Positions 36,389 through 56,200 of a stretch of 64,000 bases of DNA are shown here, one piece after another. Each line of letters begins with the position of its first letter. Position 1 is the stretch's first letter. The DNA is from Gammaproteobacteria bacterium. GTDB taxonomy: Bacteria; Pseudomonadota; Gammaproteobacteria; GCA-001735895. The notes below the pieces were generated by a model. It ran no database searches. It was not told the DNA's origin and saw only the letters and a program-made list of their open reading frames with translations. The translations under genes and the position numbers were made by a program. The stretch spans positions 1 through 64,000 of the forward strand of contig JAAEMR010000088.1 of assembly GCA_024225395.1 (NCBI GenBank), given 5' to 3'.

Positions 36389-36469
36389 ACTAAGCACCTG
36401 TACAGGTTTGATTCTATTTGACGAATGCAGAATGTAATGAACTCAACGGAAATTTCTATGTTGTGCAAA

Positions 36470-36503: not shown

Positions 36504-36536
36504 CTTTGGTTTGTGAACTAAGCGAGTTGAAACAGT

Positions 36537-37406
36537 TTAAGCAACAAACTGGTTTTTTATCTTGTTAAAAGCATTTTTTTCAATCTGGCGAATACGCTCT
36601 GCTGAAACGCCAAATTCATCGGCCAGTTCATGCAGTGTAGATTTATTGTCGGTTAACCACCGTCTACTGACAATTTGACGGCTACGATCATCAAGATCAT
36701 TCAATGCCTGCATCAGGGTTTCCTGAGTTTGCTGTTGACTGGTTTTATGCTCGAGCAATAACTCTGGAGACGGACTCTCATTAGCCAGTGTTAAAGCAGG
36801 TGCCTGATAAGCACTGTCGTCATCATCGTCGGTACTCATGTCAAAAGCCATGTCGTAACTATTTAAACGATTTTCCATTTCCAGCACGTTTTCTGGAGTA
36901 ACCCCGAGTGTTTCTGCAACATCCAGCACTTCTTCGTGTTTAAACCAGCCAAGACGTTTCTTCTGGCTACGCAGCTTAAAGAATAATTTCCGTTGAGCCT
37001 TGGTGGTTGCGATTTTAACGATACGCCAGTTTTTAAGGATGTATTCGTGCATTTCGGCTTTAATCCAGTGCACAGCAAAGGAAACCAGGCGTACGCCCAC
37101 ATCAGGGTCGAAACGTTTTACCGCTTTCATCAGACCGATATTGCCTTCCTGTATAAGGTCGGCAACAGCCAGGCCGTATCCAGAATAATTATTAGCGATT
37201 TTTATGACAAACCTTAAATGAGGAAGTACCAATTGCTGAGCAGCATTGATATCACCGGTTTGCTGTAATTCACGGGCATAAGCCTGTTCTTGCTCTAAGC
37301 TAAGAATTGGAATTGCATGAGCTGCGCTGATATAGGCTTCAAGGCTGGCCGACGAGCCGGAAATAGCTGGCAGGTGGTTCATTGAAGCGACAAGTTGTTT
37401 ACCCAT
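36537..37406 (-). CDS. rpoH: heat-shock sigma factor RpoH (sigma-32)
   Basis: The product from ATG 37406 (289 residues) is a group 3 sigma factor: LEAYISAAHAIPILSLEQEQAYA (region 1.2), region 2 with [38 protein letters not shown], the RpoH box QRKLFFKLRSQKKR, and region 4 ending FGVSAERIRQIEKNAFNKIK. The chosen ATG has a strong ribosome binding site (AACGAGGT); the frame extends 10 codons further to 37436. It directs heat-shock transcription. In E. coli rpoH follows ftsYEX; here those genes lie about 3 kb upstream on the same strand, separated by three other loci. Confidence 0.96.
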   Translation of the reverse strand: MGKQLVASMNHLPAISGSSASLEAYISAAHAIPILSLEQEQAYARELQQTGDINAAQQLVLPHLRFVIKIANNYSGYGLAVADLIQEGNIGLMKAVKRFDPDVGVRLVSFAVHWIKAEMHEYILKNWRIVKIATTKAQRKLFFKLRSQKKRLGWFKHEEVLDVAETLGVTPENVLEMENRLNSYDMAFDMSTDDDDDSAYQAPALTLANESPSPELLLEHKTSQQQTQETLMQALNDLDDRSRQIVSRRWLTDNKSTLHELADEFGVSAERIRQIEKNAFNKIKNQFVA

Positions 37407-37607
37407 AAATACCTCGTTAAAAGTGTTGGCACTCAACCAACTGGAGTGCTAAACATTAGAGCATACTTATGGGGTAAAGTTCAATAGACGGCTGTCAGGC
37501 GCTATTTTTTTAGCCGGGTTTTCGAAAGTCCTGTTGAAAAAAGGTGGTGGCTGAGTTAATTTCTGATCATAAATATTAACATAAGTCATATTTACTCATT
37601 AATAATT

Positions 37608-39005
37608 ATGTCCAGCGAAGAATCTAAAATTATTGTAGGCAGTGAAGAGTGGTGCTCATTTACAAATTTAGGCGTGCCCGCCATTAAAGCGCGTGTTGAT
37701 TCGGGTGCCAAAACATCCTCGATGCATGCCTTTAATATCCATAAATTTCGTCGTGATGGTGAGAGCTGGGTAAGCTTTGAAGTGCATCCATTGCAAAATG
37801 ATAGAAGAACCGTTATCCGTTGTGAAAGACCCGTTATTGATAAAAGGGTAGTGAAAAGTTCTAGTGGTATTTCTGAAACCCGCTACGTTATCAGTGCAAC
37901 AATGAAAGTGGGTGTTGAAAAGTGGGATATTGAACTGACTTTAGCCAATCGAGACTCTATGGGGTACAGGATGTTACTAGGGCGGCAGGCGATGAATGGA
38001 CGCATGCTGGTTGATCCATCGGTAAGTTTTTGCCTGGGTGACGTACATCCCGGCACACTGGATGAGTATTATGGCAAAAGGAAACATAAACGAAGCGGGC
38101 TGAAAATTGGCCTGTTAGCCAGTAATCAGGAGTTATATTCCAATTTACGCATTCTGGAAGCAGGGCAGGAGCGTGGGCATGAAATGGTGTTTCTTAACAT
38201 CAAGCAGTGTTATATGAAAATAGATGCGATGGAGCCGGAAGTACACTATCGTGGCGGAAAAGTACTAAATGATCTGGATGCTGTCATAACCCGAATTCGC
38301 CCCAGCGTAACTTTTTATGGTTGTGCCCTTGCGCGACAATTTGAAAGCATGGGTGTTTATACAATAAATTCATCATCTGCCATTACTCAGTCCAGGGATA
38401 AGCTGTTTTCTCTACAATTGTTATTGAAAAATGGCGTAAGCATTCCCACAACGGGTTTTGCCAATTCACCCATGGATACCAATGATTTGATCGACATGGT
38501 CGGTGGGGCACCGTTGATTGTTAAGTTGCTGGAGGGAACTCAGGGACGTGGTGTGGTGCTGGCCGAAACTAAAAAAGCCGCAGAGAGCGTTATTAATGCA
38601 TTTAAAGCGCTCAGAGCTAATTTGCTGGTTCAGGAGTTTATTAAAGAAGCTGATGGGAAAGATCTACGTTGTTTTGTAATTGATGGAAAAGTGGTTGCTT
38701 CGATTCAACGAGAGGCTGCACCCGGTGAATTTAGAGCCAATATTCACCAGGGAGGGACGGCTTCGATAATCAAAATAACACCTCAGGAAAGAGCGCTGGC
38801 GCTGAAGGCATCCAAAACTCTGGGCTTGAAAGTGGCTGGCGTGGATATCATCAGGTCTAAAAAAGGCCCGCTATTGTTAGAAGTGAATTCGTCTCCTGGC
38901 CTGGAAGGCATAGAATCGGCTACCGGTAAAGATATTGCGGGTATGATGATTGCGTCTATTGAGAAAAAACTGGGCTGGAAAAGAGCGCTTAATATAGAAA
39001 GCTAA
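37608..39005 (+). CDS. RimB-like retropepsin fused to RimK-type ATP-grasp ligase
   Basis: The 465-residue protein has two parts. Residues about 1-145 form an ATP-dependent zinc protease/RimB-like domain with [14 protein letters not shown] (catalytic-type Asp31) and [17 protein letters not shown]. From about 165 an ATP-grasp RimK-like domain follows: [74 protein letters not shown] and [28 protein letters not shown]. RimK adds glutamates to the C-terminus of ribosomal protein S6; RimB is a partner protease. Fusion of both in one chain implies a coupled modification/processing enzyme. Substrate is inferred. Confidence 0.85.
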
Positions 39006-39074
39006 CAGGTTTGTTTTTACCTGTGACAAATGGATGGTTTGATTGTATTGGCTGAAATCAGCGACCAGGTTGTT
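39006..39074. other. short spacer with weak hairpin after the rimB-rimK fusion
   Basis: ACAGGT (39005-39010) and ACCTGT (39019-39024) can pair directly after the stop codon. There is no clear T-run after it on the + strand. It may be a weak transcript end. Confidence 0.3.
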
Positions 39075-39400
39075 TTAGCTAAACTTTGAAAGCGAGTCTT
39101 GCGGGCTAAAAACCGGCGTTATGTCTGCTTCAACAGTATTGACCTGTGTATCCGGCCATCTCATAAGAGGTGCCCACTGCTCACCGCTGCCGGTCACCTT
39201 TAACACCAGAATAAGTCATTTCGCCTATACCTACTCCCTTCCCTGTTGCTTTAGCGTAATTTTGTGTATCGCGTAGCGTGGTTACAAAGGGGATATCCGG
39301 GGTAAACAGGAAGCTCATTAATTTATGGAACATTAATGGTTTTTTCGTACACGGTTGGCAACTACTGAAATTTTAATATTTTTTGCGAGCTTTTATGATG
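39075..39400 (-). pseudogene. ParA-like partition ATPase pseudogene, C-terminal part
   Basis: Reading the minus strand in three successive frames gives pieces of one protein: KISVVANRVRKN, then IPFVTTLRDTQNYAKATGKG with GVGIGEMTYSG, then EQWAPLMRWPDTQ up to a TAA at 39075. These match the C-terminal part of ParA-family ATPases (VVANRVR..., IPF-TLRDTQNY..., QW.PL..W). At least two frameshifts and an in-frame stop break it, and I find no N-terminal Walker motif upstream in the 80 bp before the response-regulator gene. It is a decayed remnant. Confidence 0.7.
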
Positions 39401-39477
39401 ACATTCGTCAATGCTTGTGTTTTATCGACCGCTTGAGCTTATGGTCGATATAGTTGCCGGATGCCTGGAAACTCTCT

Positions 39478-40311
39478 TTAATTTTCTAAAGCTTCATTTT
39501 GACGTTTGATATTAATTAAATTGAGGATCCTTTCTACCAGGACTTCTTCAACAATGGGTTTGGTAATGAAGTCATTGGTGCCTGCGCCAAAGATACCGGT
39601 AAAATCTGTTTTCTCGTTATCTTCCGGTTCAACAGTCATCAGTAAAATAGGTAATGTCAGATAATCAAAATTTAACTCTCTTCTAACACATTGTATTAGT
39701 TCGAAGCCGGTCATTTCCTTGCTAAGGGTTAAGTCGGTAATTAATACATCATATGTACATTTCTGGTTTTCCTCATAGTCCCGTCGTAATTCATTGAGTG
39801 CCATTTCGCCAGTTTTAACATGTAAAAAGTTAACGTTATTTTTTTCCAGTATAGAGCTGGTGATTGCCGCTGAAGTAGCACTTTGATCGACATACAATAT
39901 TTTGGCGGTGACAGTATTTTCTTTTCCCATAAAATTAGCGATGAAACTTACCAGTGCTTTATGTCCTTCAGATTTATCGAAATAAGCGGTTATGGCACTG
40001 GCTGTGATGCCCTCGTCGTCGTTACTAATGATGTGAGTATGAGTATCACCCGAGACGACGAAAATAGGGGTATCAATGTTTTTTTGCTGTTTACGGATTT
40101 CTTCGATCATCTTTTGACCATCCATATCTGGTAGAGATAAGCCGGTGGTGATGATTTCAAAATTAAACCGTTTTGTTGCCGTGAGTGCTTCTTTGGCTGT
40201 ACCGCAGGCAATAATGTCAATATCCGGAAGACTCGAAAGTAATTCTTTATACAGAATGGCTCGAGTAGAGTCAGAAGAATCGATTATAAGCAGGCGTTTT
40301 TTAAAGAGCAT
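39478..40311 (-). CDS. protein with two receiver domains, the first degenerate
   Basis: The 277-residue protein has two CheY-like receiver domains (about 5-125 and 135-265) and no output domain. The first keeps Asp11 but has Gly57 where the phosphoacceptor Asp is expected (FEIITTGLSLPDMDG). The second has the acceptor Asp193 (YDVLITDLTL) and Lys251 (DFITKP). A pseudo-receiver joined to a working receiver suggests a phosphorelay or sensor-scaffold protein. No histidine kinase is adjacent. It lies 15 bp after ftsX and may be read through from ftsEX. Confidence 0.85.
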   Translation of the reverse strand: MLFKKRLLIIDSSDSTRAILYKELLSSLPDIDIIACGTAKEALTATKRFNFEIITTGLSLPDMDGQKMIEEIRKQQKNIDTPIFVVSGDTHTHIISNDDEGITASAITAYFDKSEGHKALVSFIANFMGKENTVTAKILYVDQSATSAAITSSILEKNNVNFLHVKTGEMALNELRRDYEENQKCTYDVLITDLTLSKEMTGFELIQCVRRELNFDYLTLPILLMTVEPEDNEKTDFTGIFGAGTNDFITKPIVEEVLVERILNLINIKRQNEALEN

Positions 40312-40326
40312 ATTTTTATAGTCCTG

Positions 40327-41283
40327 TTAGGTTGGTTCAATATCATTTAAATGACGGGTAACGGCTAGCCATGAACCCGCCAGGCCGAGTAAGGTGCTGG
40401 CACTGATAATGATAATGAAGTCGATCAAGCTGAAGGTGATTAAATTGTATTGTGACTGGTAAAGCAAGTTTAGAGTAGATATAGGGTTCGAAAGAGCTAT
40501 TAAACTTAGCTCGACGATAAGCCACGATAATAAACCGCCAAACAATCCATACCAGACACCACTGTATAGAAATGGACGCCTGATGAAGGCGTTTGTTGCT
40601 CCAATTAATTTTGTGACGATGATTTCCTGGTACCGGCTTTGAATGTCGAGCCGAATGGTATTACCGATAATGAGTAAAACGGCAAAGCTGAATAACAGGC
40701 TGATGATGATAACGGTACGTTTGGCTATCTCAATGATGGTAAATAATTTTTCCAGCCATTCTGTATCCAGTTTGGCGATGTCTACCTGTGGAAGAATTTC
40801 CAGCTGGGAGAGTAATGTTTTTATACTGAGAGTATCAGTATCGGCAGGTGGTTGAACAACAATTGCATGAGGTAATGGGTTGCTTTCCAGGTGATCCAGG
40901 CTTTTTCCAAAGCCTGAGTTTTTCTTGAAATCCTGCAAAGCCTGGGTTCTGGGTATAAAGATAGTGCTGGTGATATCCTGACGATTTTGCAGTTCTTTAT
41001 TAAATTTCTGTGCACTATCTTCACTCAGGTCCATGTTCAGGTATAAAGTGATCTGAGTGCTGCCTCTTAAGTCTCCGGATATACTCTGAATGTTTTTCAG
41101 GAGTAGATAAAAACCACTCGGCAAAGTAAGCGTGATGCCGATTACGGCTATGGTCATAAGTGTGGAGGATGGGCTTCTATAAATTTTCCCCAGGCTGAAA
41201 ATCATTGATTGAAAATGATGTAAAAGCCAGGAAGTGAACTGATGGAATATATTGGGCCGATGCTGATGCGTGTTATCGCTCAT
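40327..41283 (-). CDS. ftsX: cell division protein FtsX
   Basis: The 318-residue permease-like protein has a cytoplasmic N-terminus, four membrane helices (one near 40-60 and three in the C-terminal half), and a periplasmic loop (about 75-170) that activates peptidoglycan hydrolases. VTKLIGATNAFIRRPFLYSG is typical. It forms a complex with FtsE. The start overlaps the ftsE stop by 4 bp. Confidence 0.95.
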   Translation of the reverse strand: MSDNTHQHRPNIFHQFTSWLLHHFQSMIFSLGKIYRSPSSTLMTIAVIGITLTLPSGFYLLLKNIQSISGDLRGSTQITLYLNMDLSEDSAQKFNKELQNRQDITSTIFIPRTQALQDFKKNSGFGKSLDHLESNPLPHAIVVQPPADTDTLSIKTLLSQLEILPQVDIAKLDTEWLEKLFTIIEIAKRTVIIISLLFSFAVLLIIGNTIRLDIQSRYQEIIVTKLIGATNAFIRRPFLYSGVWYGLFGGLLSWLIVELSLIALSNPISTLNLLYQSQYNLITFSLIDFIIIISASTLLGLAGSWLAVTRHLNDIEPT

Positions 41284-41963
41284 GTTGAAGGAGCGCTCCT
41301 CTCAAGATCGTTATGAATGATATTTCCCTTGTTCAGGGTAACGACCGGTTTTTGCAGTTCTTCGATTAAGTTAAGGTCATGACTGGCGACCAGCACACTG
41401 ACGCCGACCTGGTGAAAATCGATAAAAATTTGCATGATTTCCCGGGATAGCACCGGATCCAGATTACCGGTAGGTTCATCTGCCAGTAATAACATTGGCT
41501 TGTGCACTACAGCGCGGGCTATGCCGACTCGCTGCTGTTCTCCGCCAGACAGTGTGATGGGCATGGATTTTTCCTTATTTAACAAACCGACTTTATCCAG
41601 TGCTGCACGGGTTCGTTTGGCAATTTCATGTCGGGCATAACCCTGAATGATTAAGGGCAGCGCTACATTATCAAACACCGGTCGATCAAACAGTAATTGG
41701 TGATCCTGAAAGATGATGCCTATATTTCTGCGAATGTAAGGGATTCGAGAGTTTGGTAAGGTGTTGAGATTGATTTGATTGAGTAAAGCCTGGCCACGAG
41801 TGGGTTTTTCAATTAACGAGATGATTTTTAATAAGGTACTTTTACCGGCACCGGAATGTCCGGTTAAAAAGGCCATTTCGCCGTCTTCTAAATTCAATGT
41901 CACATTGGATAACGCATCATGACCACCGGGGTAGCGTTTTGTTATGTTGTGAAAATGAATCAT
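41280..41963 (-). CDS. ftsE: cell division ATP-binding protein FtsE
   Basis: The 227-residue ABC ATPase has Walker [14 protein letters not shown]-loop FQDHQLL, signature [14 protein letters not shown], Walker [13 protein letters not shown] and His switch ASHDLNL. It drives FtsX to activate septal peptidoglycan hydrolases. ftsY is about 270 bp upstream on the same strand, so ftsY and ftsEX are less tightly packed than in E. coli. Confidence 0.97.
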
Positions 41964-42230
41964 CGGCGATGGCTAAAGAATATTAATATCATATAGTTTG
42001 TTTATTAACTGAGCCATTATTAGATGAATTGTTAAATAATGCAGCTAGTATTTTATAAATCGTATTAAGATCCAGATAGCTGGTATATTTATTATTTTAT
42101 CGTTCTAACAGACTTTCCCGTGTAGCGATAATTTATCTTAATAGTAAGCAGGCTGATAATACATTATTAAATTGACCTGCTCAGCATATTTGTTTCATAT
42201 GTTGGTAGAAGTTAATGCTAAAAATGCTTT
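41964..42230. other. AT-rich gap between ftsY and ftsE
   Basis: This 267-bp AT-rich stretch contains no reading frame or hairpin that I can support. Because ftsY and ftsE are usually packed tightly, it may contain a separate ftsE promoter. Confidence 0.4.
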
Positions 42231-43205
42231 CTAATCTCTGTCTAAAAGTGCCCTGATAAACTCTTCAGAGTTAAACACACGTAAGTCCTGAGCCGTTTCT
42301 CCAACACCTATATATCGAATAGGTGTCTGCATCTGCTGAGCTAGACTAAAAACAATCCCGCCTTTGGCAGTTCCGTCCAGTTTGGTTAAAGTGATACCGG
42401 TAATATTTAATTTTTCATGAAAACTTTTGGCCTGTGCCAGTGCGTTCTGACCGGTACCGGAATCAAGCACCAGCATGGTTTCGTGCGGCGCTTCGGGATC
42501 GAGCTTTGCCATTACCCGTTTGATTTTTTCCAGCTCATTCATCAGGTTGTTCTGGGTGTGCAGGCGACCGGCTGTGTCGGCTATTAATATATCTATGTTT
42601 CGTGATCGAGCTGACTGTAATGCATCGTAAATAACAGAAGCTGAATCAGCACCATTGCCCTGGCTGACGACCGGTAAGTCGAGTCGTTCACCCCAGGTTT
42701 GCAGTTGTTCAACAGCGGCGGCACGGAAGGTATCACCGGCAGCCAGCATCACACTGAGCCCCTGTTCCTTGAACTGTTGAGCCAGTTTGCCAATGGTCGT
42801 TGTTTTACCGGCGCCGTTGATGCCGATCATGAGGATGACGAAAGGTTTTTTCTGGGTGTCTATTTGCAGTGGTTCAGAGATGACCGATAAAATTTCCTGC
42901 ATGGCGGTTTCTAATGAAGAGAATACACTGTCATTATCTTTAAGCTGGTTTCTGGCCAGAGCATCCGTCAGGTTGGCGGTAATTTTCTGGGTAGCTTCGA
43001 TGCCTACGTCTGCCATTAGCAGCTGATCTTCAAGCTGCTCCAGTAATTCTTCATCAATTTCTTTCTTGCCCAGAAAGATATCGCTAATACCACTGGTGAA
43101 GCTGGCCCTGGTTTTTGAAAGTTTGCTTTTCAGGCTTGAGAATAATCCGGGTTTGTTTACTGGATCTTTCTCACTTTTAGTATTGGTTTTTTTGAAACCG
43201 AACAT
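42231..43205 (-). CDS. ftsY: signal recognition particle receptor FtsY
   Basis: The 324-residue SRP GTPase has an N-domain (about 20-110) and a G-domain with [58 protein letters not shown] and GVGETAQDL. It lacks the long acidic A-domain of E. coli FtsY (N-terminus of about 15 basic residues). It docks SRP-bound ribosomes at the membrane. Confidence 0.97.
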
Positions 43206-43325
43206 AGATTACAGTGTCATATCAAGGGCGGAGGCAGTATGCTACCAGAACTTTGAATGACTGTTTATAAATGTTTAAACAGTTTTCGGTACTGCTATAA
43301 CTAAATAATGACTGGATAATACAAA

Positions 43326-44648
43326 ATGATTAAAAAGCTGTTTCTTTTATCAACCCTTTTTACGGTTTTACCGCTACAGGCGAATACTGTGGAAAGCATG
43401 CTGGAAAACGGTATGAAGATTATCGTGCGTGAGGATCACCGGGCACCTGTTGTCGCCTCTCAGGTATGGTATCGAATTGGTTCCACTTATGAATATGATG
43501 GTATCACCGGGGTTTCACATGTGCTTGAACACATGATGTTCAAAGGAACCAAAAAATTGAAACCAGGTGATTTCTCAGAAATTATTGCGGCCAATGGTGG
43601 CAGTGATAATGCTTTTACCTCGCACGATTTTACCGGGTATCACCAACGTATTGCCAGTGACCGTCTGGAAATTTGTCTTGAGCTGGAAGCTGATCGTATG
43701 CGAAATGTGATCTTTCTACAGTCAGAGTTCAATAAAGAACTGGCTGTGGTACAAGAGGAGCGTCGTTGGAGAGTAGACAATAAACCAAAATCTAAACTGT
43801 TTGAGCAATTTTATGCAACAGCATTTTTAAGCAGTCCCAGAAGAATTCCCGTTATAGGCTGGATGGGAGACCTGGAAGGCCTGGAAATGCAGGATGCTGC
43901 GGACTGGTATCAGCAATGGTATGCACCGAATAACGCGACGCTTGTTGTAGTTGGAGACGTTGTTGCAGACGAAGTTATTCAACTGGCAAATAAATATTTT
44001 GCAGATTTAAAACCTTCCGATATTACCCCTCCGAAACTAAGACCGGAAATAGCCCAGATGGGCGAAAGACGCATTAAACTGTATGGTCAAACAGCAAACC
44101 CTTACATGATCATGGGCTACAAAGCACCAGTTTTAGTGGGCAATAAAGATAAGGTAAAAGATATTTATGCACTGGATGTGTTAAGTGCAGTACTGGATGG
44201 AGGCAGCAGTGCACGAATCGCTAAAAATATACTGCGTGGACAGGAAATTGCGGCTGATGCCGGTACTTCTTTTGACCCTTTCGATCGACTCAATGGTTTA
44301 TTTTTATTTGCCGGAACTCCAAATGAAGGTGTAACGCCTGAGCAACTGGAGCAGGCTTTTCACACGGAAATAAAAAAATTACAGGATACTCCTGTTACCC
44401 AGAAGGAACTTGACCGGGTAAAGGCGCAGGTAATTGCCAGCAAGGTGTTTGAACGTGATTCCATGTTTTACACTGGCATGCAAATAGGCATGCTGGATAG
44501 TGTCGGTCTTGACTGGCGCATCCTTGATACTTATGTCGATGATATCCGTAGCATTACCGCGGAAGATGTTCAGCGGGTGGCCCGGGAATATTTTGATTCC
44601 AGCCAGTTAACCGTAGCAACACTATGGCCTGAGCAGGAAAACAAATGA
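43326..44648 (+). CDS. M16 zinc metalloprotease (active subunit)
   Basis: The 440-residue protein has a signal peptide and an inverted zinc motif HVLEH at residues 65-69, followed by the downstream Glu in ELAVVQEERRWRVD. It has the two-lobed M16B fold and YYRIGSTYE-like N-terminus (VWYRIGSTYEYDG). Its stop overlaps the start of an M16-like gene lacking the zinc motif, giving a pair like the mitochondrial processing peptidase and PqqFG-like bacterial pairs. It probably degrades periplasmic peptides. It is divergent from ftsY, as in other gammaproteobacteria. Confidence 0.93.
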   Translation: MIKKLFLLSTLFTVLPLQANTVESMLENGMKIIVREDHRAPVVASQVWYRIGSTYEYDGITGVSHVLEHMMFKGTKKLKPGDFSEIIAANGGSDNAFTSHDFTGYHQRIASDRLEICLELEADRMRNVIFLQSEFNKELAVVQEERRWRVDNKPKSKLFEQFYATAFLSSPRRIPVIGWMGDLEGLEMQDAADWYQQWYAPNNATLVVVGDVVADEVIQLANKYFADLKPSDITPPKLRPEIAQMGERRIKLYGQTANPYMIMGYKAPVLVGNKDKVKDIYALDVLSAVLDGGSSARIAKNILRGQEIAADAGTSFDPFDRLNGLFLFAGTPNEGVTPEQLEQAFHTEIKKLQDTPVTQKELDRVKAQVIASKVFERDSMFYTGMQIGMLDSVGLDWRILDTYVDDIRSITAEDVQRVAREYFDSSQLTVATLWPEQENK

Positions 44649-45955
44649 TGAATAAAATGAAATGGATGCTGGCTTTAACCAGTTGTGCCGTGTTGTTAAC
44701 GCAGTCTGCTTTCGCACTGGATATTAAAACCTGGAAAACTTCCAATGGCGTTGAGGTTCTGTTTGTAGAAAGCCATGATTTACCGATGATTGATGTTCGC
44801 CTGGCTTTCAAGGCGGGTAGTTCTCGAGATGGAGAACTCTACGGAGTCTCCCGACTGGTTAGTGCACTGCTGGTGGAAGGAACAGGTGATTATTCTTCTG
44901 AAGATATTGCAGAAAATTTTGAGTCGGTAGGTGCTGAATTAGGCCATGACTCTTTGCGTGATATGGCTTTTGTCAGCTTGCGAAGTCTTTCTGATACGCA
45001 GCCCTGGGAAAAGGTTATAGATTTGTTTGCCCGTGTTTCTGCATTACCATCGTTTCCGCAGGATGCTATCGAGCGTGATAGAAAATCGATGTTGATCAGT
45101 CTGGCAAATCGGAAAAAAGAAATCAGTAGTGTGGCCGAAGATACCTTTTATAAAAATTTATATAAAAACCATGCTTACAAAATAGGGCGAGCAGGCACGA
45201 CAAAAACCATGCAGGCTATTACGCAAAAGGACTTGAAACAGTTCCATTCTCAGTATTATGTGGCTAACAATGCCACTCTGTCACTGATGGGTGATTTAAC
45301 CCTGGAGAAAGCTAAATTTTATGCCGAACAGTTAACAAAGTATTTAAAAGCCGGGCAGAAAGCTAAACCGGTTGCTGCAGCTAAGATGGCTGACCAGGGC
45401 GAAACCATCAAGGTTCCTTTTAAAACTTCTCAAACTCATATTATTCAGGGATTACCAGTGATGCGACGTGGTGATGCCGATTATTATGCCCTCTACCTGG
45501 GTAACCATATTCTGGGTGGAAGTGGTTTCAGTTCTCGTTTAATGCAGGAGATTCGTGAAAATCGTGGTTTAAGTTACAGCGTTTATAGCTACTTTTTACC
45601 GATGGAAAGCAATGGCCCGTTCCAGATGGCATTGCAGACCAAAAATCATCAGGTGGCTGAGGCATCACAATTGTTGAATCAGATGTTGACAGATTTTATT
45701 AAAGAGGGTCCTACCGCCGCCGAGATTGATCATTCCAAAAAGAATATTACTGGTAGCTTTCCGTTAAAGATCGATAGTAATAAAAAAATAGTAGAATACC
45801 TTTCGCTGATTGGTTTTTATGATTTACCGCTGGATTACCTGGATAGTTTCAATGAAAAAATTCTGGCGGTAACTGCAGAAGATATTAAGGAAGCTTTTTC
45901 TCGCAGGGTTAAACCGGATCAGTTAATTCGTGTCATAGTTGGTGAAGCGTCATAG
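44645..45955 (+). CDS. M16 family protein lacking the zinc motif
   Basis: The 436-residue protein has a signal peptide and the M16 fold (AGSSRDGELYGVSRL, NATLSLMGDL, GGSGFSSRLMQEIRENRGLSYSV) but the HxxEH site is replaced (VSRLVSALLVEGTGD). It is therefore likely the non-catalytic partner that binds substrate with the upstream active subunit. It overlaps that gene by 4 bp, and its stop TAG overlaps the start of the next frame (rsmD). Confidence 0.93.
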   Translation: MMNKMKWMLALTSCAVLLTQSAFALDIKTWKTSNGVEVLFVESHDLPMIDVRLAFKAGSSRDGELYGVSRLVSALLVEGTGDYSSEDIAENFESVGAELGHDSLRDMAFVSLRSLSDTQPWEKVIDLFARVSALPSFPQDAIERDRKSMLISLANRKKEISSVAEDTFYKNLYKNHAYKIGRAGTTKTMQAITQKDLKQFHSQYYVANNATLSLMGDLTLEKAKFYAEQLTKYLKAGQKAKPVAAAKMADQGETIKVPFKTSQTHIIQGLPVMRRGDADYYALYLGNHILGGSGFSSRLMQEIRENRGLSYSVYSYFLPMESNGPFQMALQTKNHQVAEASQLLNQMLTDFIKEGPTAAEIDHSKKNITGSFPLKIDSNKKIVEYLSLIGFYDLPLDYLDSFNEKILAVTAEDIKEAFSRRVKPDQLIRVIVGEAS

Positions 45956-46539
45956 CTGGAAAATCCAAACAACCGCGCAAATCCCAGATACGCATTATTG
46001 CCGGCCAATGGCGAGGAAGCCGGCTAGATGTACTGGATAAAAAAGGTTTACGCCCGACACCGGATCGAGTTCGGGAAACTCTATTTAACTGGTTGAACAT
46101 GGATGTGCCCGGTGCCAATGTGCTGGATTGTTTTGCAGGTGCGGGTGGTCTCGGATTTGAAGCCGCTTCCCGTGAAGCAAGGCAGGTGACCATGGTGGAT
46201 AATGATCGCTTAATAACCAGCAACTTATCAAGGTTATGTGAGCGCTTAGGAGCGGATAATATTCGAGTAGTGACTGGAGATGTGCTGGATTTTCTGGAAT
46301 CTTCAGATGAATGTTATAACCTTGTTTTTATCGATCCACCTTATGATCTACCTGAATTGCGCTCTAAAGTACTTGATGAGTTGATTGATCGAAAATTGTT
46401 AAGCGCAGGTGCTTTAATCTTTATTGAGTGGCCAATAGAGCAGGAAATGCAGCTAAATCATGCCGACTTGACCTGGGTTAAACAAAAAAAGGCTGGGCGA
46501 GTCAGTTATGCTATAGCGAAATGGAGCCGAACTGGTTAA
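45952..46539 (+). CDS. rsmD: 16S rRNA (guanine966-N2)-methyltransferase, probable ATA start
   Basis: The conserved RsmD protein begins RIIAGQWRGSRLDVLD, then LRPTPDRVRETLFNWLN, the SAM motif VLDCFAGAGGLGFEAASRE, and the catalytic FIDPPYDLPEL. No ATG, GTG or TTG is in frame before these: a stop codon (TGA) closes the frame just upstream, and the only plausible initiator is ATA at 45952-45954, overlapping the upstream TAG, with GGTGA six bases before it. From there the product is 195 residues, near the usual length (E. coli about 198). The first ATG (46093) would remove 47 residues with conserved motifs. It methylates G966 of 16S rRNA. Confidence 0.85.
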   Translation: MAGKSKQPRKSQIRIIAGQWRGSRLDVLDKKGLRPTPDRVRETLFNWLNMDVPGANVLDCFAGAGGLGFEAASREARQVTMVDNDRLITSNLSRLCERLGADNIRVVTGDVLDFLESSDECYNLVFIDPPYDLPELRSKVLDELIDRKLLSAGALIFIEWPIEQEMQLNHADLTWVKQKKAGRVSYAIAKWSRTG

Positions 46540-46570
46540 AATCCCTGAAATTTATTTGCGTTGATAAATA

Positions 46571-47068
46571 TTGAGTTCAAATACGATAGCAATTTATCCT
46601 GGAACATTTGACCCGGTGACCTGTGGTCACACCGATGTGTGCCGTCGTGCGATAAAAATGTTTGATCACGTGGTTATTGGAGTGGCTGATAATCCACAGA
46701 AAAAACCTTTTTTTACGCTGGAAGAACGTATCGACATGCTGAATACTGTGTTTCAGGGTGAAGAAAATGTATCGGTTAAACCCTTTTCTGGTTTGTTAAT
46801 CGATTTTGCCCGGGAATGTGATTCACGAATTATTATTCGTGGCTTACGCGCCATATCAGATTTTGAATTTGAGGTTCAACTAGCCGGTATGAATAGATCG
46901 CTGGCACCGGAAGTTGAAACCGTATTTTTAACAGCGGCAGAACAATTTGCCTTTGTTTCATCCAGTCTGGTGCGTGAAATTGCGCGTTTGAATGGTGATG
47001 TCTCCGGATTTATTCACCCGGAGATACATAAACGATTAACTGAAAAACTGGCTGCAGCAAAAAATTAG
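46571..47068 (+). CDS. coaD: phosphopantetheine adenylyltransferase
   Basis: The 165-residue nucleotidyltransferase has IAIYPGTFDPVTCGH at the start, RGLRAISDFEFEVQLAGMN, and FAFVSSSLVREIAR near the end. It converts 4'-phosphopantetheine and ATP to dephospho-CoA. The TTG start at 46571 gives the conserved N-terminus directly. It lies 31 bp after rsmD, a common pairing. Confidence 0.97.
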   Translation: MSSNTIAIYPGTFDPVTCGHTDVCRRAIKMFDHVVIGVADNPQKKPFFTLEERIDMLNTVFQGEENVSVKPFSGLLIDFARECDSRIIIRGLRAISDFEFEVQLAGMNRSLAPEVETVFLTAAEQFAFVSSSLVREIARLNGDVSGFIHPEIHKRLTEKLAAAKN

Positions 47069-47114
47069 CTGCAGTATTAAATTAGAATTTTTATTGAAAA
47101 AGTAACAGGAGTAA

Positions 47115-47366
<252 letters not shown>

Positions 47367-47405
47367 ATAGAAACACTTCGGGAAGCAGGTTCCATATTTC
47401 CCATA

Positions 47406-47436
47406 AAAAGGTCGTGACCCGGAGTTGCGACCTTTT
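47406..47436. terminator. bidirectional terminator between ferredoxin gene and pgi
   Basis: AAAAGGTCG (47406-47414), a 13-nt loop and CGACCTTTT (47428-47436) form a perfect 9-bp stem with A/T ends on both strands, placed between convergent genes. Confidence 0.85.
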
Positions 47437-47439
47437 GCG

Positions 47440-49113
47440 TTAAGATTGATCTGAAATCTTCATGTAATGTTTTAGCAACCCGGTCGTAGACGGATCGTGA
47501 TCCTCCATGTGCTCCCCATGCAATAAATCACGTTGTAGCTGGCTGGCCAGTTCCTTGCCTAATTCAACGCCCCACTGATCAAAGGAATTGATATTCCAGA
47601 TTACGCCCTGCACAAATACCTTGTGCTCATACATCGCCAGTAACGAACCAAAGTTGTAAGGCGTTAATTTATCGATGAGCAGCGTGTTGGAGGGTGAGTT
47701 ACCCGGGAATGTGCGATAGCGCGCAATCAATTGCTGATGGTCATAATCCTGACTATCCGGTGACAGGTTCTCTAAAACTTCGTCCAGGTTGCGTCCTTTC
47801 ATCAATGCCTCGGACTGAGCGATTAAATTGGAAAACAATAATGACTGATGGTCACGCAATGGGTAATGGGTGTTAATAGATGCGATAAAGTCGACGGGCA
47901 CCACGGTTTCACTCTGGTGCAGAAATTGAAAAAAGGCATGTTGTCCGTTGGAACCTGTTTCCCCCCAGATAATCGGGCCGGTCGCATAACGAGCTATGGC
48001 TCCATTTCGTTTTAACTGTTTGCCATTGGACTCCATATCGAGTTGCTGCAGGTAACTGGGTAACAGATGGAGCAAGCTGTCATAGGGTAAAATTGCGTGC
48101 GAATCATAATTGAAAAAATTACGGTACCAGACGCCTAACATGGCGAGAATGACCGGAATGTTATGATGGAAGTCAGCCTCAAAGAAATGTTTATCCATGG
48201 CATGAGCACCGGCCAGTATTTGGCGAAAATTGTCCATCCCGATTTGTAGCGCGATGGATAATCCAATGGTGGACCATAGCGAATAGCGTCCACCGACCCA
48301 GTCCCACATGCGAAAAATATTTTCAGGTGCTATGCCAAATTCGGTGGCTTTTTCTACATTGCTGGAGATGGCAACAAAATGATGTTTTATATGTTCATTA
48401 TCTTTAGCTGTTTCCAGAAACCATTCACGAGCCGTGGAAGCTTCATAAATCGTTTCCAGTGTAGAAAATGATTTTGACGCAACGATGAATAAGGTGGTTT
48501 CGGGGTCCATTCCTTCCAGTGTCAGGGCTAGCTGGGCACCATCAAGGTTAGATACAAAGTGTAATTCAATACCTTCAATCCAGTAAGGACGTAAGGACTG
48601 GGTGGTGAGATACGGTCCCAGATCAGAGCCGCCAATGCCTATATTAATAACCTTGTTGATTTTTTTTCCGGAATAACCCACCCATTCTCCGGAATGAATC
48701 TGTTTGACAAAATTTTCCATTTTATCCAGTTCTTCATGGATTTCCGGTATCACATTACGTCCCTCGGTTTCCATAACTTCGTCAGCTGGCGCTCTCAATG
48801 CAATATGAAACACCGAGCGGCGTTCAGTATGGTTGATGTTATGACCGGCTTTCATCTTATCCATCCATGCGGGTAGATGACAGTTTTCAGCTAATTCTAT
48901 GAGGCTGTCAAAGGCCTTTTTATCGATACGATTTTTGGAGTAATCGAGTAGAAACTCGCCCTGTTGGGTCGAAAACTCATCGAAGCGTTTCGGGTTTTTG
49001 TTAAACAGATCGATAATGTCTGTTTTTTCCAGCCGGGTTTTATGGTTTTGTAATTTTTTCCAGATTGCTTTTTTTTGCAGCGGCAGTGCTCGTTCCATTT
49101 TATTTTTCATCAT
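47440..49113 (-). CDS. pgi: glucose-6-phosphate isomerase
   Basis: The 557-residue protein has the PGI signatures IGIGGSDLGPYLTTQ, SKSFSTLETI, DWVGGRYSLWSTIGLS, GSNGQHAFFQFLHQ with catalytic Glu and His, and VFVQGVIWNINSFDQWGVELGK. It interconverts glucose-6-phosphate and fructose-6-phosphate. It converges on the ferredoxin gene. Confidence 0.98.
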   Translation of the reverse strand: MMKNKMERALPLQKKAIWKKLQNHKTRLEKTDIIDLFNKNPKRFDEFSTQQGEFLLDYSKNRIDKKAFDSLIELAENCHLPAWMDKMKAGHNINHTERRSVFHIALRAPADEVMETEGRNVIPEIHEELDKMENFVKQIHSGEWVGYSGKKINKVINIGIGGSDLGPYLTTQSLRPYWIEGIELHFVSNLDGAQLALTLEGMDPETTLFIVASKSFSTLETIYEASTAREWFLETAKDNEHIKHHFVAISSNVEKATEFGIAPENIFRMWDWVGGRYSLWSTIGLSIALQIGMDNFRQILAGAHAMDKHFFEADFHHNIPVILAMLGVWYRNFFNYDSHAILPYDSLLHLLPSYLQQLDMESNGKQLKRNGAIARYATGPIIWGETGSNGQHAFFQFLHQSETVVPVDFIASINTHYPLRDHQSLLFSNLIAQSEALMKGRNLDEVLENLSPDSQDYDHQQLIARYRTFPGNSPSNTLLIDKLTPYNFGSLLAMYEHKVFVQGVIWNINSFDQWGVELGKELASQLQRDLLHGEHMEDHDPSTTGLLKHYMKISDQS

Positions 49114-49167
49114 CTAAAAGTTGGCGAAGTCTACTATAAAATTTATGGGTAGTCAGGATGAAGATAA

Positions 49168-51315
49168 TTATGTGGTCAATTTTCGATATATATCTGAAAT
49201 TTTGTAGGGTAATTTTTTAATATCACTGATGACAATGTAATTAGCGTAACCGTATAAATGAGGAAGGTAGTCACGTGCTTCTTCATCGATGGTTATGCAA
49301 AAGGGATGAATACCTTCGAGGCGAGCTTCAAAGAGCGACATGCGTGTATCTTCTATGCCATATTCACCGTGATAACTATCATAATCATCCGGTTTTCCAT
49401 CAGATAAGGTAATGAGCAATTTAGTCTTGGCCTGAACATCATGAAAAATACTGGTTAAGTGACGAATGGTAACGCCCATGCGAGTGTAGTCCTGAGGTTC
49501 GATAGCAGCGATACGGGCACGTACTTCATCGTCATAGTGATCGTCAAAAGTTTTGATGCGGTATAATTCACAGCGTTTACGTGTCATGCCGGAAAAACCA
49601 TAAATAGCGTAGCGATCACCGAGTGACTGCAGAGCTTCACACAGTAAAATCAACGCTTCTCTTTGCGCGGTGTTAATCCAGCCTTTGGTGGAACCACTCA
49701 TATCGATCATAAAGATAACTGCAATATTGCGTTCAGCTTTGTGAGCCTTGGTATAAATTCGAGATGATAACTCCATGCCGCTGCGGACATCGGCCATTGA
49801 GTTGACCAGTGCATCTATGTCCAGGTTTTCCCCGTCAGGTTGCTTTTTCAATACCTTGTTTTCATCCCGCATGGCTTCAAAAGTCCGTCGAAGTGTTTTA
49901 CTCAGGCCTTTGTATTTTTGCATGGTGTCGCTGACAAAATTGCTGTCAAAATCGGGTTTGACTTCTTTCTCGCGTAGAGCACACCAGTTTTTTCGATGTG
50001 CCTGACGAGTGCAATCCCACTCGTCATACAAAAAAGCACCTTCTTCGTGGTAAGTGCCTTTCCAGACTTCATCAGGATCATCTTCTTCCTGTTGCTGAGC
50101 ATGCCAGGCGTGATAAGCCCCTGAGCCGGCTGCAACCAGGTATTCTTCGGGTAGCTCTCCATGATCCTGAATTATCGAGTCAATCAGGCTTTGGGTTTCT
50201 TCATTTGGAATAGCCGGGTTGCCATCGAGTTCCAGTTCGTAGCTAAAACCCTGCGGTTGATCGGGGTCTTCAACCGGTGTCTGTTTGAATTTAGGACCGT
50301 CTGGCAATTCTTCATGTTCAGTTTCTGAGTCCAGCTTTTCCTGTTCGTCACCCTGACTTTGCTGTTCGGGATTCATTTCATCAGCCATTTTGGCCAGAGC
50401 CAGACGAAATAAATCTTTCTCCCTGGTGATACGAGCCTGCACTACGGCATTGACCTGGTCAGGTAATAATTGCCCCTGGTAAATCAAAGGTTCAGCTGTG
50501 GAGTGCGAGTACAGCTGTTGAATAAATGAAATTGAGTCATTAACGTTGGCTGATTTCTGTTTCAGGGCTTCTACGATTTCAACCGGGATGTGAGACTCTG
50601 TATCCGTACCCACAAACGATAACATCTGTCGATACAAACCGGGGAAGTCGCGTTTAATGCAGGCATTCAGGCGAATAGTTTCCAGGTTGTGGTAGATTGC
50701 AAGTGCTTTATCTTTATTTTTATACTGTGCTATTTCTGCTTCGATATCCAGCAACCAGGTTCCATACCAGGTTTGTGCCCACTGGTGCACCGCCATGGCC
50801 TTGTACAAATTAAAGTTGGTTTTAGAATCCTCCGATTCGCAGACCACTTCAGGTAGATGGATGGTTTCAGTATCGGTGAACAGTGTTTCATGAGCTTTGA
50901 TTTTGAGCGGGCGACCATTCAGTCCGTGCAGGAAGTTTTCCAGCACACCCTTGACATCTTTTAAACTGCTTCCTTTTTGAATTAAATGATACTTTTGTAT
51001 AAATTCATCAAGATTTTTTATAACCTGATTGGCTGGATACAGGCCGGCAGAAAAATAAATATCTAGCGCTGACTGTAACCATTGCTCGGTACCTTGCTGG
51101 CCAATTGAATCTAATGCTTTTTTTGACTGACCCGCATATTGATAGGCCAGTTCCGGTTGGGTTTTAGCGATAGAAGTTACCCAGTTGAGCACATATTCCT
51201 GCCATTGCTCATCCTGTGACAGGATAAATTCGGTGACTTCATCCACTGTCCAGCTATTGTAGAAATAGGGAGTCAGTATTTCATTCAGGCTGGTGGCGAA
51301 TTCAGTTTTGGACAC
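49168..51315 (-). CDS. NorD/CbbO-like VWA protein
   Basis: The 715-residue protein has a long, mostly helical N-terminal part, an acidic/Gln-rich linker (about 305-380), and a C-terminal VWA domain from about 530 with the MIDAS pattern FMIDMSGSTKGW, DYTRMG and TLSDGKPDDYDSYHGEYG. This is the NorD/CbbO family, which works with a MoxR-type AAA ATPase (NorQ or CbbQ) to activate nitric oxide reductase or Rubisco. No NorQ/CbbQ, nor or cbb gene is in the window, so the client is unknown. It lies 54 bp upstream of pgi on the same strand. Confidence 0.85.
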   Translation of the reverse strand: MSKTEFATSLNEILTPYFYNSWTVDEVTEFILSQDEQWQEYVLNWVTSIAKTQPELAYQYAGQSKKALDSIGQQGTEQWLQSALDIYFSAGLYPANQVIKNLDEFIQKYHLIQKGSSLKDVKGVLENFLHGLNGRPLKIKAHETLFTDTETIHLPEVVCESEDSKTNFNLYKAMAVHQWAQTWYGTWLLDIEAEIAQYKNKDKALAIYHNLETIRLNACIKRDFPGLYRQMLSFVGTDTESHIPVEIVEALKQKSANVNDSISFIQQLYSHSTAEPLIYQGQLLPDQVNAVVQARITREKDLFRLALAKMADEMNPEQQSQGDEQEKLDSETEHEELPDGPKFKQTPVEDPDQPQGFSYELELDGNPAIPNEETQSLIDSIIQDHGELPEEYLVAAGSGAYHAWHAQQQEEDDPDEVWKGTYHEEGAFLYDEWDCTRQAHRKNWCALREKEVKPDFDSNFVSDTMQKYKGLSKTLRRTFEAMRDENKVLKKQPDGENLDIDALVNSMADVRSGMELSSRIYTKAHKAERNIAVIFMIDMSGSTKGWINTAQREALILLCEALQSLGDRYAIYGFSGMTRKRCELYRIKTFDDHYDDEVRARIAAIEPQDYTRMGVTIRHLTSIFHDVQAKTKLLITLSDGKPDDYDSYHGEYGIEDTRMSLFEARLEGIHPFCITIDEEARDYLPHLYGYANYIVISDIKKLPYKISDIYRKLTT

Positions 51316-51429
51316 GTTTGATTAGAGGATAAAATAATGAATTATAGCAGGCTATGATATGGTATTTGTTTAGTTGGAGCAGGGCTATATCTTTAACCTG
51401 TCTATGGAGAGGTTAATAAAGTGCAGTAA

Positions 51430-51461
51430 CAAAGGGTGCAATATCCTTTTAACTGCACCCT
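51430..51461 (-). terminator. candidate terminator after the DsrE-like gene
   Basis: AGGGTGCA (51433-51440) and TGCACCCT (51454-51461) form a perfect 8-bp stem with a 13-nt loop, 17 bp after the DsrE-like stop on the minus strand, followed by TTGTTA. T-run is short. Confidence 0.5.
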
Positions 51462-51477
51462 AAGTCTGACTGGCCCC

Positions 51478-51849
51478 CTAGTAAATCAATGACTGGGTAG
51501 ACTTCAGGCTTTCTGAAACAAAAGTAGCAGCTCCAACGATTTCAGCCCCGGGGATTAAATCTTCTGCTTTTATCTGTCTAGAGCCGACGCATGGCCCGCA
51601 AACATACATTTTACCACCCGCTTCAAGATAGGTTTCAATGAGTTCGCTTAATTCGGGGAATCCATTTGCAATAACATGATCTGACATACACTTGACTGCC
51701 AGTAAGCCTCTATTTCCCTGAAATCCCGTCACGACATCGACATCCCCTGCCTGTGCTGCAGTGGCCATAACAAAAGGGACAGTTGCTAATTCCGGATTTT
51801 CTGGACCGTTAGTAACCATAATAAATAACTTTTTAGATTTATCAGTCAT
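51478..51849 (-). CDS. DsrE-family protein
   Basis: The start is ATG 51849, preceded by GAGAGGT; a GTG three codons upstream is a weaker choice. The 123-residue protein has the DsrE/F-like fold: KKLFIMVTNGPENPE, VPFVMATAAQAGDVDVV, and a Cys-containing segment KMYVCGPCVGSR near residue 83. DsrE relatives carry sulfur as persulfide in sulfur oxidation or tRNA thiolation; the CxxC here could be the sulfur-carrying site. It is divergent from the RND operon. Function inferred from family. Confidence 0.85.
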   Translation of the reverse strand: MTDKSKKLFIMVTNGPENPELATVPFVMATAAQAGDVDVVTGFQGNRGLLAVKCMSDHVIANGFPELSELIETYLEAGGKMYVCGPCVGSRQIKAEDLIPGAEIVGAATFVSESLKSTQSLIY

Positions 51850-52074
51850 TTCAAGCACCTCTCTACTTTTTACTACTATTAATATTGGAATATGCTTATA
51901 TGTTAATCAATGACCTGATGCAAATAGCTGATGGTGTTAATTTTATTGATTCAATGATGATCAGAGTCATTCATCACGATTGAAATATATGGTAAAAAAA
52001 CCATTATTCAGTTTTCTGATTAGTATATGTCGTACTACTAGTCATCAAAGAAACAGCTAATAGAGAGAGGTAAT

Positions 52075-53220
52075 ATGAGGTTTTATCATTTCCCCATGGC
52101 TTTCGTCTTACTGGCCCTGTTCTCATTTAATGTCAGCTCGCAACAATCACAACCCCTGTCAATTATTCCTGTCAAGACGCTTTCCATTCCGGCTAACCGT
52201 CTGCTTGTGGGAGGTACTGTCGCGGCACATAAATCGGTAGTTTTTTCTGCCCAGATGCCGGGGCGCATAATTAGTATTTCTGGCGAGGAAGGTGATCGGT
52301 TTAAGCAGGGTGAGTGGCTGGTCAAGATAAATGATGATGAATTAATCGCCCGGAGACAAACAGCCCTGGCACAGTATGCCACTGCTTATAGCGCGATCAA
52401 TAATGCAAGGGTTCAGCTTTACAGGCAAAGGGAATCTCCATTGACCAGCAGCCATACACCCGGCGGAATGGGAATGCCTGGAATGTTTGATCAGATATTT
52501 ACCAACCCCATGTCCGAAGTGTTGGGAATTCGAGATTACGGGGTTGAGCGGGGAGCTGACATTTATGCAACTCGCACTCAACTTGATCAGGCTTACTATG
52601 CGTTTGATCAGGCAGTTGCTCAAATACGGCAAATTGATACCAAGTTACGCGACACAGTTAGCATTGCTCCCTTTGAAGGTATCATTGTTTCGAAAAACAT
52701 TGAAGTCGGCGATACGGTGCAACCGGGGCAAACTTTACTGGTATTTGAAAATTTGAATGTGTTGCAAATTGTTGTTGATGTTCCGGGTCGTCTGATTATT
52801 AATTTGCAGGAAGGTCAACTGTTAAATGCCAGGGTTGATGGCATGCCCCACGATATCGAGGTCAGGGTCAGTAAAATATTTCCAACTTCAGATCCTGTCA
52901 GGCATACCACCCGGGTTAAATTAACATTACCGGCCGGCAGTCAGGTTTCTGCAGGAAATTATGCAGAAGTATGGATACCGGGTTCGAAGACAGCGACTCA
53001 AAAGCGATTGTTGATTCCTTCCAGTGCGGTTATTGAACGGGGTGGATTACCATCAATTTTTGTAGTTAATGCACAAAATTTTGTTGAATTACGCCTGGCC
53101 AGAGTGGGAGATATATTACCTTCTGGAGATGTTGTGATCCTGTACGGTGTTAAAGAAAATGAGCGGGTTCTGGATAAACCTCCGGCTTTTATCACTTCAG
53201 GCTTTGAAATAAAACAATGA
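52075..53220 (+). CDS. RND efflux periplasmic adaptor (membrane fusion protein)
   Basis: The 381-residue protein has a signal peptide, a split lipoyl/hairpin region (SAQMPGRIISISGEEGDRFKQGEWLV and IAPFEGIIVSKNIEVGDTVQPGQTL), an alpha-hairpin with a Gly/Met/Pro-rich loop (about 124-145), and beta-barrel and C-terminal domains. It links an inner membrane RND pump to an outer membrane channel. The pump gene follows after 12 bp. No TolC-like gene is in the cluster. Confidence 0.9.
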   Translation: MRFYHFPMAFVLLALFSFNVSSQQSQPLSIIPVKTLSIPANRLLVGGTVAAHKSVVFSAQMPGRIISISGEEGDRFKQGEWLVKINDDELIARRQTALAQYATAYSAINNARVQLYRQRESPLTSSHTPGGMGMPGMFDQIFTNPMSEVLGIRDYGVERGADIYATRTQLDQAYYAFDQAVAQIRQIDTKLRDTVSIAPFEGIIVSKNIEVGDTVQPGQTLLVFENLNVLQIVVDVPGRLIINLQEGQLLNARVDGMPHDIEVRVSKIFPTSDPVRHTTRVKLTLPAGSQVSAGNYAEVWIPGSKTATQKRLLIPSSAVIERGGLPSIFVVNAQNFVELRLARVGDILPSGDVVILYGVKENERVLDKPPAFITSGFEIKQ

Positions 53221-53232
53221 CATTATTCCCAA

Positions 53233-56200
53233 ATGACTACCCCGGATAAAGCGATGTCTGAGAAAAAAACCAACGGAGAACTGAAACATTTTTCCAGAAG
53301 ACCTGCATTATCCCACCCTCATCATGAACATCTGGAAGGACCTAAACTAGGGCTTGCCGGAAACATCGCGCATTTTTTTATTGACTCTCCACTGACCCCA
53401 TTGCTGTTTGCAGCGGCTTTATTTATCGGGCTGATCGGTTTGGTGTATACACCACGGCAGGAAGACCCTCAAATTTCTGTGCCGATGATTGATATTTTCA
53501 TACAGTATTCCGGGGTCTCTGCCAACGATGTTGCCAACCTTGCGATCGCGCCGCTTGAGGGAATGATGAAGGAAATCCCGGGTGTTAAACATGTCTATTC
53601 TGCATCTCAGCATGATCAGGGAATTGTCACTGTTCGCTTTAAAGTTAATGAAGAAATGGGGCCGTCAATCGTAAAGGTGCATGACAAACTGCAATCCAAT
53701 ATGGATAAAATACCGATGGGTGTTTCCATGCCGCTGGTCAAACCAAAAGGGATTGATGATGTTCCTGTGGTGACCCTGACTTTATGGGCTGAAGGAGTCT
53801 ATGATTCTGAATTAAGGGTATTGGCGCATAAAGTATTGCAACGTTTAAAAGAGGTACCTGATACCGGGCAGGGGTTTGTTATTGGTGGCAGAAAACATCA
53901 GGTACGTATTGAAGTCCTGCCTGAACGACTAATTGGTTTTGGCATCAGTCTGGATCAGGTAGCGAATGCCATCAGAAGTTCAAATAGCGAATATCCTGCT
54001 GGTTACCTGGAACAGGGTGCTACATCGTTTAAGGTTTTTACCGGTTCATTTTTTAAAAATGCAAGTGAGATAGAACAATTAGTCATTGGCGTGAACCAGG
54101 GAAAACCTGTGTATTTACGTGATATCGCCAATATTATCGACGGTCCATCTGAAACTCATGAACTGGTTTCCTATTATAGTGGTATCGATAAGGCTGATCC
54201 CTCGCTCGTTGCAGTTGATATACCTGCAGTTACTATCGCTTTAGCTAAGAAAGAAGGTTCTAACGGGGTTACAGTTGCGGAGGGTGTCATTGCGAAACTG
54301 GAAACCCTGAAAGGCCGCCTGATTCCTGACAATATTCACACAACGATTACTCGTGATTATGGTAAAACCGCAAACGATAAAGTAAATGAGTTATTAAAGG
54401 CCCTGGTTTATGCTGCTATCGCAGTCAGTATATTGTGCTGGATTACGATTGGTGCTCGACCGGCTGTTGTGGTTATAACTGTAATTCCAGTAGTCATCCT
54501 GATTACAATCTGGTCAAGCTGGGCACTGGGTAATAGCATCAATCGGGTGAGTATGTTTGCCCTGATTTTTTCTATTGGCATCCTGGTGGATGATGCGACC
54601 GTTGTAGTAGAAAATATTTTCAGACGTTGGTTAAGAGATGGTGAAACCACGATAACAACAGCAGTCGATGCGGTACGTGAAGTAGGTAATCCAACCATTA
54701 TTGCTACTTTTACCATTTTAGCCGCATTGTTACCGATGGGATTTGTCAGCGGCATGATGGGACCTTATATGCGTCCCATACCTGTCTTAGGTTCCGTGGC
54801 CATGGTATTTTCGTTGCTGGCTGCATTTGTTTTCACTCCGTGGTTTTCTTTACGGCTGAAACCCCGTTTATCGACTTTACTCAAAGCAGAAAACCATGAG
54901 AAAAATATCCAGACTAAAATTGGAAATTTTTATCGCCCTCTATTACTTCCGCTGATAAGAAATCGTTTTTTTGGCTGGACCTTTTTAATCTCAATTATTG
55001 TGCTGTTTTTTGTGGCCTGCTCCATGTTTTATACCCGGGCGGTTACGGTAAAAATGCTGCCCTTTGATAACAAGCCAGAATTTAATGTTTTAATTAATAT
55101 GCCGGAAGGAACTGCGTTGCTTGAAACAGCAAATGTGGCGAGACGCCTGGCAGAAACGGTGCGCAATAATGTACCTGAAGTCACCGCTTTACAAACCTAC
55201 GCAGGAACCGCTTCACCCTTTAACTTTAATGGCATGGTGAGGCATTATTATTTACGTCAGGAACCCTGGCATGCCGATATTCAGGTGATGCTGATGGATA
55301 AAGAGCACCGTGACCGCAGTAGTCATCAGCTTGCTGAAGCCACGCGTCGGTTATTGACTCAACAGGCTCATGAGCTAGGGGCTAAAATTGCTATTGTTGA
55401 AATGCCTCCCGGGCCTCCCGTGTTGCAAACGGTGGTAGCAGAGATTTATGGCCCGGATGCCGTCACCCGGCGACAGGTGGCTACTGATATGACAAAAATA
55501 TTTGAACAGACAATCAACCTGGTTGATGCTGATAATTATATGATTATGCCTTATGAACGTTGGCACTTTAAAGTAGACACTGAAAAAGTGTTACGCCAGG
55601 GAGTTTCAGTGGAAACTATAAATCGAAATATTCAGATGGCGATGGGTGGTTATAAACTGGGAGATATGAAGGGGCATAGTTCACTCGAACCCAGGTACAT
55701 CGTGCTTCAACTACCCCTGGAAAAACGTGGAGAAATTGAACGTTTGTTAAATTTACCGGTTTCCTCTGCGAGTGGGCAAGTGGTTCCTTTAGCAGAACTG
55801 GGCAGCTTTATTAAAGTTGAAGAGCAAAACATAATTTATCGAAAAGATCTGCGCCCTATGGAATATGTTGTGGGTGAAATGGAAGGTCGTCTGGGTGCCC
55901 CTATTTACGGGATTTTATCAGTTGAAGATGCCTTACAGAATTACCAGACACCTGATGGAGTGCAAATATCCGGTACTATGACCGGTGCTCCCGAGGATGA
56001 CCTGCATTCGGGATTTGAATGGAGTGGTGAATGGGTCGTCACCTATGAAACATTCCGTGATATGGGGCTGGCTTTTGCTGCAGCCCTGGTACTTATTTTT
56101 GGCCTGCTGGTGCTGGAATTTAGAAATTTTATTCTACCCGCTATTATTATGGCTCCGATCCCTCTGACCTTGATTGGTATCATACCCGGGCACTGGATTA

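Follow-up and report, generated by a model that had tools for sequence, protein, structure and literature searches.

A probable AUA start codon of rsmD that overlaps the stop codon of an M16-family peptidase gene and is kept as AUA or AUC in most species of a gammaproteobacterial genus

The locus considered here belongs to Gammaproteobacteria bacterium GCA_024225395.1 and lies in the window, that is, the first 64,000 nucleotides of contig JAAEMR010000088.1; MAG sequences were used throughout, and genes were read from sequence. A gene for an M16-family peptidase, recognized in the list of open reading frames and by Pfam (PF00675 and PF05193), occupies positions 44645-45955 of the forward strand and ends with the TAG at 45953-45955. 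It begins in an ordinary 4-nt overlap of the ATGA type with another M16 gene (43326-44648). On the same strand it is followed by rsmD, for a 16S rRNA (guanine(966)-N2)-methyltransferase of 195 aa if read from an ATA (45952-46539), and then by a coaD-like gene of the cytidylyltransferase family (46571-47068, forward strand), assigned from the open reading frames and Pfam. The coaD-like gene starts with TTG here and, among several congeners, with either TTG or GTG; weak starts are thus a general trait of the gene cluster.

The rsmD frame (45946-46539, forward strand) opens after a TGA at 45943-45945 and closes with a TAA at 46537-46539. The motif IRIIAGQWRG is preceded in this frame by 14 codons, which read, from 45946, AGC GTC ATA GCT GGA AAA TCC AAA CAA CCG CGC AAA TCC CAG, and ATG, GTG and TTG are absent from all of them, as a preliminary description of the locus had stated. 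The same description had placed the N-terminal motifs ahead of the first ATG and this is borne out, since the earliest canonical codons of the frame, a TTG at 46093-46095 and the first ATG at 46099, both lie past IRIIAGQWRG and LRPTPDRVRETLFNW. Its naming of ATA as the sole candidate is correct for the stretch before the motif, where the ATA at 45952-45954 stands alone, but does not extend to the motif itself, which includes a further ATA (45988) and ATT codons. rsmD therefore presents itself as a candidate AUH-start gene (AUA, AUC or AUU), with no canonical start upstream of the conserved RsmD N-terminus. The two structural details reported earlier were also recovered. Indeed, the ATA and the TAG of the M16 gene overlap as ATAG (-4 nt spacing), the stop and start thus being placed as in termination-reinitiation pairs, where they overlap or nearly touch, and the Shine-Dalgarno (SD)-like GGTGA lies at 45941-45945 of the forward strand, six bases before the ATA.

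By its full-length family match the gene is RsmD, the 16S rRNA m2G966 methyltransferase, with the activity predicted. Read from the ATA, the product scores 151.9 bits against TIGR00095, for which the cut-off is 117.5; it also matches PF03602, and E. coli RsmD/YhhF (PDB 2fpo) aligns with it from IRII to the C-terminus with an E of 1.3e-40. It is the single match in the genome, where a search for a second canonical copy gave none. A start at the TTG at 46093 was rejected, as the product loses the conserved motifs and, at 92.5 bits, misses the family cut-off; since this cut-off is passed only when the segment ahead of the TTG is translated, the segment is counted as coding. Comparison of the window genome (G000) with G001 gave an omega of 0.12 over the 49 codons preceding the first canonical codon, and in the 35-codon block that runs from IRII to this codon pN was 0.03 vs a pS of 0.48. 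These substitution patterns indicate that strong purifying selection, of the kind acting on coding sequence, maintains the segment from the ATA up to the first canonical codon. The 11 codons that follow the ATA specify a basic stretch that is less conserved than the motif (IAGKSKQPRKSQ vs IAGKAKKKRKSQ), and weakly conserved N-termini are usual for RsmD.

The start region was then compared among eight species (G000-G007) of the genus, whose members are uncultured gammaproteobacteria. A canonical start is absent from seven of them: five have ATA and two have ATC, while the one remaining species has GTG. The ATAG junction is present in all five ATA species (G000, G001, G004, G006 and G007), and in G002 and G005 the ATC at the aligned position has a TAA stop a few bases on (ATC ATA A and ATC GTA A, respectively). 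A separate MAG, SI039_bin4, with an RsmD 85% identical, contains the same TC-ATAG-CC, its sequence here being identical to that of G001. The position is thus conserved among relatives with one GTG exception, and an AUH codon has been maintained there across deep divergence, with RsmD identity down to 54%. In G003, the sole species with a canonical in-frame candidate, the GTG has no SD of its own; it sits inside GGTGAG, which acts as SD in other species. In both the RsmD and the M16 trees the ATA species are basal in the genus and the ATC and GTG species group together, with moderate support, so that the common ancestor of the genus probably already had an AUH start. G006 also carries a second, more distant rsmD (G006:C184:428-970; 41% identity), possibly through contamination of the MAG.

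A lone non-canonical start in one MAG would normally suggest an error or a mutation, and the preliminary description had left the choice between a rare AUA start and a base change from ATG, proposing the starts of close relatives as a check. With the same ATAG in four further species, ATC in two and another canonical start in G003 only, this check supports the former and disfavours the latter. In particular, the AUA is not a base error because the same ATAG occurs in a separate MAG and the canonical start is absent in seven of the eight species. A sequencing error, a recent point mutation, a pseudogene or a true start at the TTG at 46093 were accordingly rejected, and in view of this conservation, of the purifying selection and of a truncated product that falls under the family cut-off, their joint probability is close to negligible.

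Initiation at the Ile codon of IRII (ATA 45988) would yield a 183-aa protein beginning M-RIIAGQ. This codon is AUA, AUC or AUU in eight of the eight species, and some relatives start one to five codons from its position; however, the Ile of IRII is also conserved where the protein begins further upstream, as in E. coli RsmD, no SD is apparent ahead of the codon, and KSQ or SQ with basic residues upstream of IRII is conserved among close species, which together make such a start unlikely. A fusion protein made by ribosomes that slip from the M16 frame into that of rsmD (-1 frameshifting) is more improbable still: the two frames do overlap at the M16 stop, but the heptamer at the overlap is neither slippery nor conserved, the open rsmD frame ahead of the ATA is short or unconserved, and the M16 protein has a signal peptide evident on sequence inspection, so that the fusion would be exported.

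The GGTGA would form a duplex of about -6.4 kcal/mol, a modest value, with the standard anti-SD, which was assumed for the host. Indeed, no 16S rRNA gene was found in the MAG assembly, and both the anti-SD and G966 are thus assumed. Six congeners have corresponding GGTG, GGAG or GGTGA sites and, with the same standard anti-SD assumed, all seven AUH species have an SD-like match at a workable distance, at -5.3 to -7.3 kcal/mol. These energies are to be read against a chance level at which 19% of random 20-mers of the window bind the anti-SD at -5 kcal/mol or better, and the GGTGA is partly a reflection of the conserved VGE codons of M16. A single-sequence fold of the junction RNA gave nothing notable (z = -0.26). 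Among the tRNA genes listed at least three have a CAU anticodon and none a UAU anticodon, and an unusual initiator tRNA was rejected on these grounds.

The best explanation, to which we assign a probability of about four in five, is that rsmD is functional and that its translation begins at a genuine AUA at 45952 (45952-45954, forward strand; conserved in G001, G004, G006 and G007), with low output, aided by the SD and coupled to the termination of M16. Ribosomes ending M16 at the UAG would stand over the overlapping AUA, and the GGUGA or GGAG six bases upstream would pair modestly with the anti-SD and direct re-initiation at the AUA. The ordinary CAU initiator tRNA would then re-initiate there with low efficiency, decoding the codon as fMet, and the outcome would be a low level of RsmD coupled to M16 translation. 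We infer the exact site of initiation, the fMet decoding, the coupling and the low output. There is precedent for such codons in S. aureus, where AUA starts of infC, ccpN and citZ have been demonstrated by Ribo-RET and where, in poor medium, reporters for ccpN, citZ and cvfC1 (AUU) reached about 10% of the AUG level, that for ccpN rising to 30% in rich medium (PMC13009471).

It does not appear that start codons have become relaxed throughout this lineage. When window positions 1-20000 and 35001-55000 were scanned by homology against G001 and G007, rsmD was the sole real gene whose coding conservation reached back beyond the first canonical start; of the other frames flagged, some read as antisense shadows, and the rest contained stops or had a non-coding upstream segment. 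About 200 genes (281 kb) were also scanned for coding potential, with a sensitivity low enough that rsmD itself fell below the threshold, and infC emerged as the one real case. General relaxation was rejected on these results, the second of which has low power. The infC of the genus (L091-L097, with L097 of the window genome at G000:C61:25314-25820) appears to start with AUC, as an ATC placed after a strong SD (ATCGC[AT]GATGA; SD of -8.3 to -9.3 kcal/mol) is the sole start candidate common to all seven complete copies. This would mean that ribosomes of the genus use AUH starts.

Outside the genus, no convincing start-less rsmD was found among the 193 loci located, which are spread mostly across many gammaproteobacterial families and some of which duplicate one genome. 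One candidate, in the single-contig genome of an unrelated gammaproteobacterium (L157, G074:C1:901099-901519), was set aside; its start is missing because the frame seems to slip by one base in a G run, which may be an assembly error or real. L003 and L057, in which an ATA was similar at first look, each have an upstream ATG and were rejected. In a Thiotrichaceae MAG (L018, 2899-3010) M16 and rsmD overlap, and the nearest canonical rsmD start lies 30-32 codons upstream, at the head of a long basic N-terminal extension; with a distant ATG or GTG present and the extension plausible, this locus is not start-less. Among the literature titles and abstracts listed, none described an rsmD start other than AUG, which is not proof of absence.

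The persistence of so weak a start may be explained in two ways. According to the first, the overlap is ancestral and came by drift to read ATAG; coupled translation would yield a sufficient amount of an enzyme that is not essential, and a return from AUA to AUG is blocked, as the M16 stop UAG would become UGG. Such a change would lengthen M16 by 16-53 codons in all five AUA species, the neighbouring coaD also has a weak TTG start, and a table in PMC10117853 gives no obvious growth defect for the E. coli rsmD deletion. This account leaves unexplained the AUC of G002 and G005, two species in which an AUG would not disturb M16, and over such divergence a better start could have come from any of many single mutations or from codons nearby; we consider it a serious one whose chances fall slightly short of even.

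According to the second, which is compatible with coupled initiation at the AUA, the codon is kept since AUH initiation depends on the methylation of G966. The m2G966 made by RsmD crosslinks to C34 of tRNAfMet and stacks on it in a 70S structure, initiation in vivo with a 3GC-mutant initiator tRNA increases when RsmB or RsmD is lost, and when both methylations are missing tRNAfMet binding is about twofold lower in vitro (PMC7949028). As m2G966 contacts C34 and its loss loosens initiation fidelity, the AUH start of rsmD could be an IF3-like feedback device, in which under-methylated ribosomes would be more permissive at AUA, more RsmD would be made, G966 would be methylated and the choice of start codon would tighten. 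The AUC start, in the same genus, of infC, a known autoregulated AUH-start gene, is in keeping with this, as are the maintenance of AUH over deep divergence and the two AUC species, which are free of the lock imposed by the M16 stop. However, the effect of m2G966 on AUA initiation is hypothetical and its direction a guess, the AUH start of rsmD is restricted to one genus, and the GTG of G003 counts against feedback. This second account is thus tentative, and blocked reversion is given the larger share. A second initiation-fidelity loop besides IF3, in which the state of m2G966 in the P site would set the use of the rsmD AUH start alongside the AUC of infC, is a shade more doubtful again.

To our knowledge, bacteria very rarely have AUA starts that are conserved in evolution, and gene prediction programs limited to ATG, GTG and TTG would truncate or miss genes such as this rsmD. 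Since RsmD modifies the nucleotide that is stacked on the initiator anticodon, a specific question can be posed, namely whether m2G966 controls near-cognate starts and rsmD is wired into this control; the conserved AUA/AUC start could be a self-regulating switch. The M16/rsmD junction, in turn, provides a natural AUAG stop-start overlap for the study of re-initiation at non-AUG codons.

Among known systems, E. coli infC, which encodes IF3, has an AUU start and is autoregulated. Like infC, rsmD encodes a factor that acts at start-codon selection in the P site and has an AUH start, in a genus where infC itself has AUC. Unlike rsmD, infC is an essential gene with a strong SD, whereas rsmD encodes a methyltransferase and combines a weaker SD with an overlapping stop codon; a feedback loop has been proven for infC in E. 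coli, and for rsmD it is only a suggestion. The rsmD of E. coli has a normal start codon. Its product, RsmD/YhhF (PDB 2fpo), belongs to the same family as that of the window and differs from it in the N-terminal extension. Another E. coli gene, pcnB, starts with AUU. A conserved AUH start with an upstream SD is shared by rsmD with S. aureus ccpN (AUA) and cvfC1 (AUU) (PMC13009471) and with pcnB, in all of which the AUH codon limits expression; all three differ from it in function, ccpN and cvfC1 depend on extended SD motifs, and rsmD lies instead in a 4-nt overlap with the upstream gene. No report of the ATAG form of this overlap was found in the literature searched. In known coupled pairs the overlap is NTGA, at the same -4 nt (PMC12548453), and, as in these, the start of rsmD and the stop upstream share two bases, here within ATAG, so that re-initiation would be positioned at the stop.
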